Source: an uncultured Erysipelotrichaceae bacterium
GTDB lineage: Bacteria; Bacillota_I; Bacilli_A; Erysipelotrichales; Erysipelotrichaceae
NCBI GenBank assembly: GCA_947036815.1
Contig: CAMQRS010000005.1
Span: 1-55,540, forward strand
Direction: 5' to 3'
DNA length: 55,540 bases
Of the stretch, positions 49,729-55,540 are shown piece by piece (positions within the stretch are counted from its first letter, which is position 1; each line of letters starts with the position of its first letter). The notes beneath the pieces were generated by a model. It was not told where the DNA came from, made no database searches, and worked only from the letters and a program-made list of their open reading frames with translations. Position numbers and translations under genes: made by a program.

Positions 49729-49802
49729 TGATGAAATACATTAGAGTTGCATTCATTTTAGTTATTGTACTTATGCTAACAATGAGTATATTCTTAGTAT
49801 AG
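49728..49802 (+). CDS. 24-aa membrane peptide coupled to atpC
   Basis: Begins at TAATG, overlapping the atpC stop codon, and encodes a single hydrophobic helix (VAFILVIVLMLTMSIFLV) after a short basic start MMKYIR. A second ATG follows three bases on. The stop-start overlap is the same coupling device used between atpF and atpH, which is the main reason to call it. Function unknown; might sit beside F0 (inference). Too short for a homology-based call by eye. Confidence 0.45.
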   Translation: MMKYIRVAFILVIVLMLTMSIFLV

Positions 49803-49850
49803 AAACAATGACTAGATAAACACTAACATAAGCTTACAAATCATAATATA

Positions 49851-49897
49851 AAAACACGAGACATATTGGTAGTGAACCATATGTTTTGTGTTTTTTT
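49851..49897 (+). terminator. Terminator of the atp operon
   Basis: AAAACAC pairs with GTGTTTT and inner ACATAT...ATATGT arms, followed by TTTTTTT. Confidence 0.8.
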
Positions 49898-49986: not shown

Positions 49987-50038
49987 TATAATTTATTTCA
50001 ATAAAAATGTGACCATAACACGTGCATACACGTGTTAT
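49987..50038 (+). promoter_or_regulatory. -10 box and perfect inverted repeat before the sigma-factor gene
   Basis: TATAAT at 49987-49992 with no good -35 box. Downstream, ATAACACGTG (50015-50024) and its exact complement (50029-50038) flank CATA: a 24-bp perfect palindrome in the leader, 4 nt before the GAGGGGG ribosome site (50043). It could be an operator or an mRNA hairpin that limits sigma-factor synthesis. Confidence 0.5.
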
Positions 50039-50057
50039 AAGTGAGGGGGTTATTGTT

Positions 50058-50546
50058 ATGATTGAGAATGAAGATTCTAAATTAGAAGTTGTATATGATT
50101 TATATGCAAACATGCTATATAGAATTTCATATTCCATACTAATGTCAAAAGAAGATGCAGAAGATGCAGTTGCTGAAACATTTATTGTATATATAAAAAG
50201 AAACCCAGTACATATTGAAAGTGAACATACAAAGGCTTGGCTAATACGAGTTGTGATTAATAAAAGTAGGGATATTCGACGCAAGAGAATCATCCGTAGC
50301 TATATCTCTTTAAGTGATACGAAAGAGTATGCAAAAGAAGTAGATCATAGTGATACTTTACTTGATCTTGTGCATCAACTATCTGATAAATATAAGATAG
50401 TTATCCTTTTATATTATTATGAAGAATATAGTGTGCAAGAAATTTCAACTATCTTAAAAATTAGTATATCCAATGTTAAAATGCGTTTATTAAGAGCACG
50501 CAAAGTCTTAAAACAACTGATAGAAAAGGAGAGAAATGATGATTAA
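50058..50546 (+). CDS. ECF-type RNA polymerase sigma factor
   Basis: A 162-aa sigma-70-family factor with only regions 2 and 4. Region 2: VYDLYANMLYRISYSILM with EDAEDAVAETFIVYIK and WLIRVVINKSRDIRRK. Region 4: LSDKYKIVILLYYYEEYSVQEI, then the recognition helix ISISNVKMRLLRARKVLKQL. The ATG at 50058 follows GAGGGGG; the longer frame upstream runs through the palindrome. It overlaps the next gene, a one-helix membrane protein, the classic arrangement of a sigma/anti-sigma pair. Its target promoter motif is not identified. Confidence 0.92.
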   Translation: MIENEDSKLEVVYDLYANMLYRISYSILMSKEDAEDAVAETFIVYIKRNPVHIESEHTKAWLIRVVINKSRDIRRKRIIRSYISLSDTKEYAKEVDHSDTLLDLVHQLSDKYKIVILLYYYEEYSVQEISTILKISISNVKMRLLRARKVLKQLIEKERNDD

Positions 50547-51024
50547 TCAAAAACATAAAGAGGCATACCAACAAATCAAATTGGATGAACAATTTAAAGA
50601 TAGAGTCATGGCGCTTAATCATACACAAAGCTTCTTTTCTATGAGAGTAAAAGCGAGTGTTGCTTTATGTAGTTTGATGCTTATTTGTGGGTTGGCTTAT
50701 TCACTAGTAAATCATGAACATTATTCAATTGATGTGATTGATATGCCAATGGTTCCCAGAGCAATGTCAGTTGGTAATACATTACAACTCTCATTGAATA
50801 TCATTACAGACAGTGAGATAAAGGTATCAGTGAGTACGGGATATTTGGAACAAGATTCAAATATCTATGAAGTATATGAATGTGAAGAAGAGTGCATACT
50901 AGTATGGACGATAGAGGATACAATAACGTCACGTTGTTATTTATATGTGGAAACTAGTGAAAACGTGGAACGATATATAATAACACAGGATAGCACCAGT
51001 CAATGGAACATAGAAAGAGGTTAA
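50539..51024 (+). CDS. Single-pass membrane protein, presumptive anti-sigma factor
   Basis: A 161-aa protein with ~40 cytoplasmic residues (NQKHKEAYQQIKLDEQFKDR), one membrane helix (VKASVALCSLMLICGLAYSLV) and a ~100-residue outer domain with several cysteines (YECEEECILVW). It overlaps the sigma-factor gene by 8 nt. Order, coupling and topology fit a membrane anti-sigma factor that releases the sigma factor on an outside signal; no zinc-binding anti-sigma motif is seen, so this is inference. The second of two ATGs is chosen from AGGAG spacing. Confidence 0.65.
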   Translation: MINQKHKEAYQQIKLDEQFKDRVMALNHTQSFFSMRVKASVALCSLMLICGLAYSLVNHEHYSIDVIDMPMVPRAMSVGNTLQLSLNIITDSEIKVSVSTGYLEQDSNIYEVYECEEECILVWTIEDTITSRCYLYVETSENVERYIITQDSTSQWNIERG

Positions 51025-51026
51025 TG

Positions 51027-51536
51027 ATGAAAAAAATCATAGTTGGATTATTAAGTTTAATATTATCAGTTACAGTAGTAGGATGTTCGAATTCAGATAG
51101 TAAAGTAGAAGGTCCAGAAGGAACTCTTTCAGAAATCGTAGAAGAAATATATGCAGCAAAAGATACAGAATTCATGTTACAAACAAATGAAGTAGATATG
51201 AGTGATGAAAATATATTCAAATCATATACTGGATTATCAAGTACAGACGGTGTAAAAGAAGCGGTTGCATCTGAAACAATGATGGGATCACAAGCATATT
51301 CATTAGTGTTAGTTAGAGTAAATGATGCAAGTGATGCGAATGATGTTTCTGAAGAAATGAAAGAAAACATTGATCAAAGAAAATGGATTTGTGTAGAAGC
51401 AGATGATTTACAAGTAGTAAGTGCAAACGATGTAGTCATGTTGATAATGATGTCTACAGAATTTAAAGATACAATCACTTCACAAGAAATAGTAGATGCT
51501 TTTTCTGATATAAGTGGTGGATTAGACAACGAATAA
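51027..51536 (+). CDS. Lipoprotein, DUF4358-like
   Basis: Exported lipoprotein of 169 aa. Signal peptide MKKIIVGLLSLILSVTVVGC ends at Cys20. The mature part is acidic and has a beta/alpha pattern (EIVEEIYAAKD; YSLVLVRVNDASDANDVSEEM). It resembles DUF4358 proteins that I associate with MBOAT/DHHW loci in Firmicutes; that is from memory. It overlaps the preceding stop and follows AGAGG. Function unknown; an accessory on the outer face is likely. Confidence 0.75.
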   Translation: MKKIIVGLLSLILSVTVVGCSNSDSKVEGPEGTLSEIVEEIYAAKDTEFMLQTNEVDMSDENIFKSYTGLSSTDGVKEAVASETMMGSQAYSLVLVRVNDASDANDVSEEMKENIDQRKWICVEADDLQVVSANDVVMLIMMSTEFKDTITSQEIVDAFSDISGGLDNE

Positions 51537-51545
51537 ATAATGAAA

Positions 51546-51572
51546 AACAGCCTAGAGATAGGCTGTTACTTT
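51546..51572 (+). terminator. Hairpin between the lipoprotein and MBOAT genes
   Basis: Perfect 9-bp stem AACAGCCTA/TAGGCTGTT, loop GAGA, tail ACTTTT. A partial terminator that could lower MBOAT expression relative to the sigma operon. Confidence 0.6.
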
Positions 51573-51584
51573 TAGAGGTGAAAT

Positions 51585-52970
51585 ATGTTATTTTCTAGTA
51601 TCACGTTTTTATATTACTTTTTACCAATCGTAATGATTGTATATTTTGTAGTGCCAAACATGTATAGAAATGTGGTACTGCTAATTTTTAGTTTACTCTT
51701 TTATGCGTGGGGAGAACCAATCTATATACTCTTAATGATATTCACTATCGTTGAATCCTATCTAATAGGAAGATGTATTGAGCATAGTGAGTGTCATAGA
51801 AAGAAAAAGATGTACTTAGGAATTGGAGTTATTCTTGGGATATCACTGTTACTGTATTTTAAATATAGTGACTTTATTATATTGAACATAAATGAAATTG
51901 CTAATACGGAAATAGACTTATTGAAATTAAGTCTTCCTATTGGGATTAGTTTCTTTACGTTTCAAACCATAAGTTACGTGATTGACGTATATCGTAGGGA
52001 TGTAAGTGCATCAAATAATATCATAAATTATGCTACTTATGTTTGTATGTTTCCACAATTAATTGCGGGACCGATTGTTCGATATGCGGATATAAATGAT
52101 GAATTAACGTATCGAGAATTAAGTACATCGAATGTGTATGATGGGATTGCACGCTTTCTAGTAGGACTATCTAAAAAAGTATTGATCGCAAACTTATTGG
52201 GCGAATTATGCCAGATATTTTTAACGAGTGATCCAAGCGTACTATTTTACTGGATGTATGCGATTAGTTTCTCGTTGCATATCTATTTTGATTTTTCTGC
52301 GTATAGTGATATGGCAATCGGATTAGGAAAAATATTTGGGTTTACATTTTTAGAAAACTTCAACTATCCATTTATCTCAAAAAGTATTACAGAGTTTTGG
52401 AGAAGATGGCATATTTCACTTGGGAATTGGTTTAGGGACTATGTGTATATCCCGTTAGGTGGAAATCGCAAAGGACTACGCAGAACGATTATTAATATAT
52501 TTATTGTATGGATGCTAACAGGATTATGGCATGGCTCAAACTATACATTTATTGTATGGGGACTATTGTTTGCGATTCTATTGCTGATAGAAAAATTATT
52601 TCTACTGACATACTTGAAAAAGATGAAGGGTTTCGCACATGTATATACATTGTTCTTTGTGGGTATCAGTTTTATGATATTTGATGCTCCTAGCGTATCA
52701 ATAGCGATAGAGCGAATCTTTGGTTTGTTTGCGTTTACTAGTCTACCCTTAGTGAATGATCAATCTATGTATTATCTGAATAGCTACTTTATCATCATTG
52801 GGTTTGCGATTTTTAGTGCTACGCCAATTCCTACTAATTTTATGAAGAAGTTGAGACAATACAGATGGAGTGCTCCGTTTGAAGTAGTTGGACTCATCTT
52901 ACTCCTATTTGTGGTAACTGCCTTTTTAGTAGATGGATCTTATAATCCATTTTTATACTTTAGGTTTTAA
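51585..52970 (+). CDS. MBOAT-family O-acyltransferase (AlgI-like)
   Basis: Polytopic membrane acyltransferase, 461 aa with about ten hydrophobic segments. The MBOAT core reads AGPIVRYADI, FSAYSDMAIGLGKIFGF, ITEFWRRWHISLGNWFRDYVY (near residue 268) and LTGLWHGSNYTFIVWG, whose His316 is the expected catalytic histidine. AlgI/DltB-like members pass acetyl or other acyl groups across the membrane to a partner protein. The DHHW/AlgX-like protein next door is the likely acceptor or transferase. AGAGGTG start. Confidence 0.93.
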   Translation: MLFSSITFLYYFLPIVMIVYFVVPNMYRNVVLLIFSLLFYAWGEPIYILLMIFTIVESYLIGRCIEHSECHRKKKMYLGIGVILGISLLLYFKYSDFIILNINEIANTEIDLLKLSLPIGISFFTFQTISYVIDVYRRDVSASNNIINYATYVCMFPQLIAGPIVRYADINDELTYRELSTSNVYDGIARFLVGLSKKVLIANLLGELCQIFLTSDPSVLFYWMYAISFSLHIYFDFSAYSDMAIGLGKIFGFTFLENFNYPFISKSITEFWRRWHISLGNWFRDYVYIPLGGNRKGLRRTIINIFIVWMLTGLWHGSNYTFIVWGLLFAILLLIEKLFLLTYLKKMKGFAHVYTLFFVGISFMIFDAPSVSIAIERIFGLFAFTSLPLVNDQSMYYLNSYFIIIGFAIFSATPIPTNFMKKLRQYRWSAPFEVVGLILLLFVVTAFLVDGSYNPFLYFRF

Positions 52971-52981
52971 GAGGTAATAAA

Positions 52982-54076
52982 ATGAAAGATAAACATAAAA
53001 AGTATGCGTTGAGCATACTACTTACTATTTGGTTCATCATTGCCGTGTTGTGCTGGATGGTTCCAACTAAGGATATATCCAATAGTGAGAGAAGAACATT
53101 AGCAAGTATGCCTGAATGGAGTGTGTCTAATGTGATGTCAGCTCAATTTATGGAACAGTTTGAAGAATATGCAATGGATCAATTCATTGAACGAGATGCC
53201 TTTAGAAAGCTTAAATCAATGACAAGCTTATACCTGTTACAACTAAATGATGTGAATGATTTATTGTATCAAGACGGGCATATTAATAAAATTAATTACC
53301 CACTTAATGAAGATTCGATTGAACATGCAACGAATAAATTTAATTATATTTATGATTCTTATTTAAAAGATAGTGATGTGAATATATACAGTTCTATTAT
53401 TTATGATAAGGGATATCACTTAAGTGAGGGAAGTTTATCAATAGATTATGAACACTTAAGTAACTTAGTACAACAAGAGATGGAGTATGCAAACTATATT
53501 GAGATAAATGATTTACTGTCATTAACTGATTTCTATGCTAGTGATACGCATTGGAAACAAGAAAACTTAATAGATGTGGCAAATACTTTGTTGAAAGAGA
53601 TGCATACATTTGAAGGAATAGTATCCTATAGTGAACAGATAGCACTAAAAGACTTTGAGGGTGTATATCAAGGGCAATCAGGATTGTCGCTTGGGAATGA
53701 TACACTTACGTTTCTAACGAATCAGATACTGGAAGATAGTATTGTTCAAGATTCACTTGATCCAACATTGGGCGCTGTTTACGATATAAGTGCAGTTGTA
53801 GAAAGAGATCCTTATGAACTGTATGTAGGAGGAGCTACCCCGTTAATATCTATCACCAATGAATTGGCAACAAATACGAAAGAATTAGTCATATTTAGAG
53901 ATTCCTTTGCGAGTAGTTTAGCTCCTTTACTTGTTCATTCGTATTCAAAAATAACGTTGATTGATATCCGATACATGAGTAGTGAGAATCTTAGTGAGTA
54001 CATTACATTCAGCAATCAAGATGTATTGTTTATGTATAGTTCATTGTTGTTGAATGATAGTTATACATTGAAATAA
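52982..54076 (+). CDS. DHHW-family/AlgX-like secreted acyltransferase partner
   Basis: A 364-aa protein anchored by an N-terminal helix (SILLTIWFIIAVLCWMV), with the rest outside. The N-terminal SERRTLASMPEWS block is typical of the DHHW family; the catalytic candidates of the SGNH-like fold are Asp188/His190 in SDTHWK and Ser308 in FRDSFAS. Homologues such as AlgX/AlgJ add acetyl groups to an exported polysaccharide. GAGG ribosome site, 11 nt after the MBOAT gene. The acceptor glycan is unknown. Confidence 0.9.
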   Translation: MKDKHKKYALSILLTIWFIIAVLCWMVPTKDISNSERRTLASMPEWSVSNVMSAQFMEQFEEYAMDQFIERDAFRKLKSMTSLYLLQLNDVNDLLYQDGHINKINYPLNEDSIEHATNKFNYIYDSYLKDSDVNIYSSIIYDKGYHLSEGSLSIDYEHLSNLVQQEMEYANYIEINDLLSLTDFYASDTHWKQENLIDVANTLLKEMHTFEGIVSYSEQIALKDFEGVYQGQSGLSLGNDTLTFLTNQILEDSIVQDSLDPTLGAVYDISAVVERDPYELYVGGATPLISITNELATNTKELVIFRDSFASSLAPLLVHSYSKITLIDIRYMSSENLSEYITFSNQDVLFMYSSLLLNDSYTLK

Positions 54077-54230
54077 AAGAGTCTGCAGATTAATGAAATA
54101 AATAGGAAGTAAAGTTGATTGTATGGAAATAAGTTTGATATATAATTGAATGCATATAATAAAAAAGCGATATGTATATGATACAGTCCTAGTCAAGTAG
54201 ACACAGAAAATAATTGAAATTTGTATACTG
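54077..54230. other. Non-coding spacer with a possible IS end relic
   Basis: No gene seen. At 54191-54233 the words CAAGTAGACACAG and TATACTGCACC resemble pieces of IS3-family ends (AGTTAGACA and TGTACTGCACC types), but there is no transposase remnant, so this is a weak impression. Confidence 0.25.
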
Positions 54231-54263
54231 CACCACATTCAATATAAAGGATGTGGTGTTTTT
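54231..54263 (+). terminator. Terminator downstream of the MBOAT-DHHW unit
   Basis: Stem CACCACATTC (54231-54240) with GGATGTGGTG (54249-54258), loop AATATAAA, tail TTTTT. Confidence 0.75.
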
Positions 54264-54341: not shown

Positions 54342-54369
54342 TTGACAAAAGCATTGTATATGTTAAAAT
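54342..54369 (+). promoter_or_regulatory. Strong promoter with long leader before the last gene
   Basis: TTGACA (54342-54347), 16 nt, TGT-TAAAAT with extended -10 (hexamer 54364-54369). The gene begins at 54572, so the leader would be about 195 nt. The leader (54376-54571) holds an AAGGAG at 54455 followed by very short frames only; I could not match it to a riboswitch class. Confidence 0.7.
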
Positions 54370-54571: not shown

Positions 54572-55204
54572 ATGAATAAAAAAACAAGACTATGGATAAT
54601 AATACATATCATCTTAACAGTAATGGTATTAGGTCAGATGCTTATGATATATTCAAGTACACCAGAGTTGAAATGGGTGGCGATTGTAGTAGCTATAGTA
54701 TGTGTGTGTATTATAACGATTCACATAATAAGAATATGTAAGAAAAGTAAGCAGATAGAGAACTTGAAATCAGTTGAGCAGAAGCAAGTCTTTAGTAAGC
54801 AAATTATTGTTTTTGATATTTGTATGGGGATCATAATTCTATATTTTGGAATTACGTATAATGGACCTGAGTACCCATTTGAAAAGTATAATGCAGCTGA
54901 TATAAAAACAATGTATATTTCAGAGGCGGAAGATGGTGAAGAATACTTATTAACAGATGAAGAGGTGACAAGTGTTATTGCATTACTTCAAGAACTTAAT
55001 GTGCGAAATAAAACAGATATTAGTGGAAGCTTTGGAGCTCCCTTCACACAAATAAACTTTACGTATTCAGAAAATGGACTGACTTGGGAGACTATTGTTT
55101 TAAATAGTCACTATGTGATGTATGACAATGACGTATATACAACATATTCATTCGATGCGATAGACTATGGACATGAACTTATTGATAGACGTGAAGAAAA
55201 TTAA
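54572..55204 (+). CDS. Membrane protein of unknown function
   Basis: I do not recognise this 210-aa protein. It has two N-terminal membrane helices (LWIIIHIILTVMVLGQMLMIY; WVAIVVAIVCVCIITIHII), a charged loop with KKSKQIENLK, a third helix (IIVFDICMGIIILYFGI) and a ~110-residue domain outside or inside the cell (MYISEAEDGEEYLLTDEEV; FSYSE-like strands). AGAGGGG lies upstream of the ATG. Promoter and ribosome site are convincing, homology is not claimed. Confidence 0.75.
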   Translation: MNKKTRLWIIIHIILTVMVLGQMLMIYSSTPELKWVAIVVAIVCVCIITIHIIRICKKSKQIENLKSVEQKQVFSKQIIVFDICMGIIILYFGITYNGPEYPFEKYNAADIKTMYISEAEDGEEYLLTDEEVTSVIALLQELNVRNKTDISGSFGAPFTQINFTYSENGLTWETIVLNSHYVMYDNDVYTTYSFDAIDYGHELIDRREEN

Positions 55205-55486: not shown

Positions 55487-55540
55487 TGGAGCGGGTGATC
55501 AGAATCGAACTGACGTAATCAGCTTGGAAGGCTGGGGTTC
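55487..55540 (-). tRNA. tRNA-Gly (anticodon TCC), 5' end cut by window edge
   Basis: The complement reads, 5' to 3', the anticodon arm CCAGCCTTCCAAGCTG (anticodon TCC at 55526-55528), a variable stretch, the T arm with GTTCGATTC, the acceptor strand CACCCGC, discriminator T and an encoded CCA (55487-55489). About 54 of ~74 nt lie inside the window; the D arm and 5' acceptor strand are outside. It reads glycine GGA/GGG codons. Confidence 0.93.

Follow-up and report, generated by a model that had tools for sequence, protein, structure and literature searches.

A predicted self-regulated operon coupling an ECF sigma factor to an MBOAT-DHHW acyltransferase pair in an uncultured Erysipelotrichaceae bacterium

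The stretch of DNA analysed here (the window) comprises 55,540 nucleotides of contig CAMQRS010000005.1 from an uncultured Erysipelotrichaceae bacterium (assembly GCA_947036815.1). The open reading frame (ORF) list and family scans placed five consecutive genes on the forward strand, at the positions and in the order given by a first-pass annotation: an extracytoplasmic function (ECF) sigma factor of 162 residues (50058-50546), a presumed one-helix membrane anti-sigma factor, also of 162 residues (50536-51024), a lipoprotein of divergent DUF4358 type (51027-51536), a membrane-bound O-acyltransferase (MBOAT) of 461 residues (51585-52970) and a DHHW (SGNH) transferase of 364 residues (52982-54076). 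The sigma and anti-sigma genes share 11 bp. A terminator at 49851-49897 separates the unit from the atp operon, an intrinsic terminator predicted on the forward strand at 54230-54259 closes it, and no sigma-70-like promoter was found on that strand between 50482 and 53961. The next ORF (54572-55204) has a good sigma-70-like promoter of its own at 54342-54369 and therefore lies outside the unit. Judged from sequence, the five genes are likely to be a self-contained, self-amplifying envelope-response operon for surface acylation.

The sigma factor exceeded the Pfam cut-offs for both Sigma70_r4_2 (3.6e-14) and Sigma70_r2 (1.1e-7) and scored 66.7 bits with the sigma70-ECF profile TIGR02937, for which the cut-off is 42.9 bits. 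It has the form of an ECF factor, a small protein with sigma2 and sigma4 and without sigma3. The best start is the ATG at 50058, preceded at 50043 by the ribosome-binding site GAGGGGG (together 50043-50060, forward strand); relatives are arranged alike and a longer GTG frame is unnecessary. Among the seven sigma-70 family proteins of the window genome it is the sole ECF-looking one. The neighbourhood of the other weak ECF match (C27), judged by reading its ORFs, is of the sigH-nusG type.

The conservation of the gene order was evaluated by several searches. Across 60 relatives, the gene before MBOAT-DHHW usually encodes a small lipoprotein or a protein anchored in the membrane, and the four such proteins that were scanned are DUF4358. 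In G057, a genome from another family, all five genes stand in the window's order, next to other upstream neighbours. A search for the lipoprotein family in about 85,000 species genomes gave 80 loci; an MBOAT gene lies downstream in 72, with DHHW next in 65 of these, and a sigma factor and a membrane protein lie upstream in 17 of the 71 loci with enough upstream sequence. Fifteen of these 17 sigmas cluster with that of the window in one clade (support 99/98), apart from the other ECF factors of the order, and their loci, in Erysipelotrichaceae and Clostridia, have the cassette order. An independent search with a sigma profile, which avoids starting from the lipoprotein, covered 295 genomes from a different order, and 30 loci were fetched. 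The lipoprotein gene lies downstream of the sigma in 14 of them, which include every one of the 12 top-scoring sigmas (173 bits or more) and two with lower scores; the remaining 16 loci lack it there. Three of the 14 positive loci were repeats (L134, L149, L130), leaving 11 new ones. Thus the survey of other Firmicutes that the first-pass annotation had proposed found the order in 27 loci including the window, although near-identical pairs (L134/L136, L117/L118) reduce the number of independent cases. The presumed membrane anti-sigma is a conserved partner in all cassettes; within the window's own order it is rare, with a strong match in 2 of 316 genomes. That the order recurs across genera with differing flanks indicates more than chance.

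In the two remaining loci with a sigma upstream (L114:3149-3739 and L125:737-1297), unrelated sigmas occupy the equivalent place before lipoprotein-MBOAT-DHHW, which suggests repeated recruitment of a sigma pair; TGTAACC-N16-CGA lies 5' of the L114 sigma.

A candidate ECF promoter, TGTGACC-N16-CGT(GTT) with an A-rich tract 5' of it, was recognised at 50008-50033 on the forward strand; the predicted leader of the sigma gene is only about 15 nt. The window and G057 have TGTGACC-N16-CGTGTT in common, and the shorter TGTGACC-N16-CGT stands just 5' of the sigma gene both in the window and in each of the 15 loci whose sigma is homologous. In the 1.15 Mb made up of the fetched loci and the window, the exact motif occurs 16 times, each time 5' of a cassette sigma (16/16), where about 2 occurrences are expected from composition. 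Among the 80 loci of the lipoprotein search it was confined to those with the sigma, and cassettes without it carry near variants, TGTGACT (L238, L240, L244) or CGTTACC (L236). When 22 sites were aligned, the spacing and CGT were invariant while the spacer varied. Both motif elements are invariant there through the selection of the sites, but agreement extends to features outside that selection, namely the upstream A-tract, the T/A preferences before the -10 element and, about 10 nt beyond this element, a ribosome-binding site. At 50013-50040 the window has a 12-pair inverted repeat (CATAACACGTG/CACGTGTTATA) that overlaps the candidate promoter; no such repeat was seen in other cassettes.

In the window genome the exact motif is present in a single copy, and the sigma therefore looks dedicated to its own operon, probably as its single target. 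The possibility of a wider regulon in this genome was considered and rejected, since relaxing the search to two mismatches produced no enrichment: there were 45 hits, not one of them a single-mismatch copy, against 94 for the reversed control. With a stricter form of the motif, 11 of 14 cassette genomes gave a single match at the cassette, and G328, among these genomes, had an additional site. The same TGTGACC-N16-CGT motif accompanies four ECF sigmas with no acyltransferase nearby (L243, L247, L249, L250); in three of these cases the anti-sigma has about 460-475 residues. The promoter specificity is thus shared with related ECF factors, and cross-talk is possible in genomes that hold both.

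The first-pass annotation had also proposed that the MBOAT and DHHW proteins acetylate the surface. The MBOAT matched PF03062 (2.9e-28, 99.6 bits against a cut-off of 27). His276 and His316 are invariant among 10 aligned proteins, and the protein ends in FLYFRF, an F-x-Y-x-x-F motif with Tyr458 that is present in 69 of 69 relatives. The DHHW protein matched PF14286 (4.6e-9, 36.4 bits against 25) and, by profile comparison, PatB1 (8.8e-46), the secondary cell wall polysaccharide O-acetyltransferase of Bacillus cereus (PMC9487903). The family is defined by K-D-S in block I, DxRY in block II and D-H-H-W in block V; the window protein has RDS (306-308), DIRY (328-331) and DTHW (188-191), and the catalytic residues Ser308, Asp188, His190 and Arg330 (the last in the DIRY of block II) are kept. 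Judged by these motifs, the two proteins are members of the PatA/PatB1 type. As in PatA1/PatB1 of B. cereus (PMC9487903), the DHHW protein has RDS, DxRY and DxHW blocks and the MBOAT a C-terminal Tyr motif; unlike that pair, the window genes stand under an ECF pair of their own with a DUF4358 lipoprotein gene before them, and no csaB or S-layer genes were seen in the window. The Gram-negative PatA/PatB system likewise combines a conserved MBOAT His with a C-terminal F-x-Y-x-x-F motif that serves as relay towards an SGNH transferase, the Tyr of PatA being auto-acetylated (PMC12148441), whereas here the partner is of the DHHW family, the host is of Gram-positive type, and a regulator and a lipoprotein are linked. 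The likely chemistry is acyl transfer to an exported glycan. All sequence features of a polysaccharide O-acyltransferase pair are present, and the proposal is supported to that extent, with acetyl as the most likely group.

It could be that the pair transfers another group, such as D-alanine or a longer acyl chain, or that it modifies an exopolysaccharide or a protein rather than a wall glycan. The acceptor is not readable from sequence, and the MBOAT matches DltB structures (5.8e-32) and the DltB profile TIGR04091 (NCBIfam, 3.3e-46). However, the score of 158 bits is far below the equivalog cut-off of 375 and the partner is DHHW, not DltD, so that identity as DltB was rejected; no dlt-like neighbours were seen among the window ORFs, which were read rather than each submitted to a family scan. 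This explanation is accorded a lesser but appreciable likelihood. The window genome (97% complete) yielded one MBOAT and no DltB was seen; one AT3 protein is encoded elsewhere in it.

The lipoprotein carries the lipobox VVGC, and Cys20 and K119-W120-x-C122 are invariant in the alignment. With DUF4358 (PF14270) it scored 23.2 bits, under the curated cut-off of 25, while 23 of 46 lipoproteins of relatives match at E<=0.01 and equivalently placed proteins reach 2e-27. The AlphaFold2 model is a confident alpha/beta fold, with a predicted local distance difference test score (pLDDT) of 89 and a predicted template modelling score of 0.81; a fold search of the PDB gave nothing at E<=0.001. It had been suggested that this protein is a sensor or an acceptor guide. 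The lipoprotein also accompanies MBOAT-DHHW in most loci that have no sigma (of 71 evaluable upstream, 17 have one) and so belongs with the acyltransferase module; a sensor is less likely, and a part in the acylation machinery, outside the signalling pair, more likely. Operons such as L045, L046 and L054 have the same acyltransferase core and an upstream DUF4358 protein and, unlike the window, no linked ECF pair.

Some loci vary in this part of the unit. In five (L117, L118, L147, L162, L166) a pair of DUF4358-like lipoproteins is encoded in tandem, and the second member contains a long linker of low complexity, rich in E, P, A and T, as if spanning the wall. At L045:11425-12204, a membrane-anchored protein with a GDSL lipase match (PF13472) is encoded 5' of the DUF4358 gene, and similar genes are found in MBOAT-DHHW loci L047, L048, L053 and L062.

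The 48 bp between the lipoprotein and MBOAT genes contain a hairpin on the forward strand (51546-51567; folding z-score -3.1), which may be a weak terminator or attenuator or a processing site. With it in place, the five genes need not be equally expressed. Of 48 relatives in which this gap measures 30 nt or more, 21 have a terminator-like hairpin in it (L108, L124, L126, L128, L147, L159, L170 and others); shuffled gaps gave none. It is therefore conceivable that the sigma mainly controls itself, the anti-sigma and the lipoprotein, that transcription ends at the hairpin, and that MBOAT-DHHW, which occurs without a sigma in many loci, is expressed independently. However, the gap is short and holds no sigma-70-like promoter on the forward strand, the T-tract that follows the window hairpin (ACTTTTAG) is poor, and sigmas of the clade keep the whole gene set beside them. 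Read-through at a reduced level fits these observations better, and independent expression is considered improbable. Partial termination probably gives an excess of lipoprotein, that is, differential expression within the operon.

The protein at 50536-51024 matched no Pfam family and is identified as an anti-sigma by its position, its overlap with the sigma gene, the conservation of such a partner and its AlphaFold2 model (mean pLDDT 76.7, about 92 in the ectodomain). The model has two short N-terminal helices, a membrane helix at residues 35-58 (DNA 50638-50709) and a compact all-beta ectodomain of about 80 residues (82-161; DNA 50779-51021); no PDB fold was matched at E<=0.001, and weak PknH-like fold hits in the searches with this model and the lipoprotein were not used. 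In class I anti-sigmas, including the zinc (ZAS) type, about 100 residues form a cytoplasmic domain that often contains Hx3Cx2C, while class II (CnrY-like) anti-sigmas bind sigma4 and sigma2 with two short helices (PMC7406223). The window protein has about 34 residues before the membrane helix, folded as two short helices, and no Hx3Cx2C; the modelled cytoplasmic part fits class II better than class I.

The proposal of a dedicated signalling pair responding to an envelope cue, for example lysozyme or a host peptide, brings to mind sigV-rsiV-oatA of Bacillus subtilis (PMC5014341), in which an ECF sigma, a membrane anti-sigma and a surface O-acyltransferase likewise form one autoregulated operon. 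One reading considered was a true equivalent of that system, with the anti-sigma acting as receptor for lysozyme and the cassette making peptidoglycan resistant to it, as this similar circuit logic would allow. However, the RsiV receptor domains DUF4163 and DUF3298 gave no match in 16 anti-sigmas, and a receptor of RsiV type was rejected on that basis; the ectodomain is small and without a significant fold match, and the SGNH partner is PatB1-like, with secondary cell wall polysaccharide as the reported substrate (PMC9487903), not OatA. A lysozyme receptor is thus held to be quite improbable, whereas the part of the proposal that sees one conserved, probably self-activating unit is retained. 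The window also differs from sigV-rsiV-oatA in having MBOAT and DHHW in place of OatA, an extra lipoprotein and an ectodomain unrelated to that of RsiV. Moreover, SigV also drives dlt, whereas the motif search suggests a single target here. The cassette resembles that system in its working and is not a member of it, since the receptor domains and the acyltransferase differ.

Several points weigh against a self-contained operon. Most related lipoprotein-MBOAT-DHHW operons have no sigma pair, which means that the acyltransfer chemistry does not require one. The anti-sigma function has been assigned solely from position and topology. The stricter -10 form gave no match in 3 of 14 cassette genomes, although the core motif is present in their cassettes, its second element reading CGTTTA or CGTTAC. 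Finally, the hairpins described above could uncouple MBOAT-DHHW expression from the sigma. Chance adjacency of the ECF pair and the acyltransferase operon, which the many sigma-less operons might suggest, was rejected as having practically no likelihood in view of the order repeated in 27 loci, the single sigma clade and the common promoter motif.

In the proposed mechanism of this envelope-response operon, the anti-sigma would hold the sigma factor at the membrane and release it when a cue from outside acts on the beta ectodomain. The free sigma would then start transcription at TGTGACC-N16-CGT 5' of its own gene, where the motif itself is observed, and the operon would yield more sigma and anti-sigma together with the lipoprotein and the MBOAT-DHHW pair. 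By means of its conserved His, the MBOAT would load its own Tyr458 with an acyl group, for which acetyl supplied by acetyl-CoA is the most likely candidate; Ser308 of the DHHW protein would accept the group and pass it on to an exported glycan, at one of its hydroxyls. Such a relay is known for PatA/PatB and PatB1, and the intact motifs point to it here. The lipoprotein, by its linkage, probably assists the acyltransferase as an accessory component on the outer side of the membrane. A homeostatic loop was also considered, in which the anti-sigma ectodomain and/or the lipoprotein read the acylation of the polymer, the single-target sigma holds a set point and the lipoprotein, with reference to its invariant KWxC motif, is a third catalytic or acceptor-presenting subunit. 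This version is speculative and regarded as unlikely.

Outside the five-gene unit, a 24-codon ORF encoding a single hydrophobic helix (MMKYIRVAFILVIVLMLTMSIFLV) lies immediately 3' of atpC (49729-49803). An apparent tRNA-Gly gene on the reverse strand (55487-55540) is cut by the window end, presumably the reason why ARAGORN called no tRNA there.

In the open-licence literature, no paper was found that joins ECF, anti-sigma and MBOAT terms, and the sole mention of DUF4358 is in a proteomics survey. Regulated MBOAT-DHHW surface acylation in gut Firmicutes thus appears undescribed in that literature, and DUF4358 gains a first functional context. The invariant promoter offers a direct handle by which regulator, target and chemistry may be tested together, and what would be a self-switching unit with a common control sequence recurs in many gut Firmicutes.

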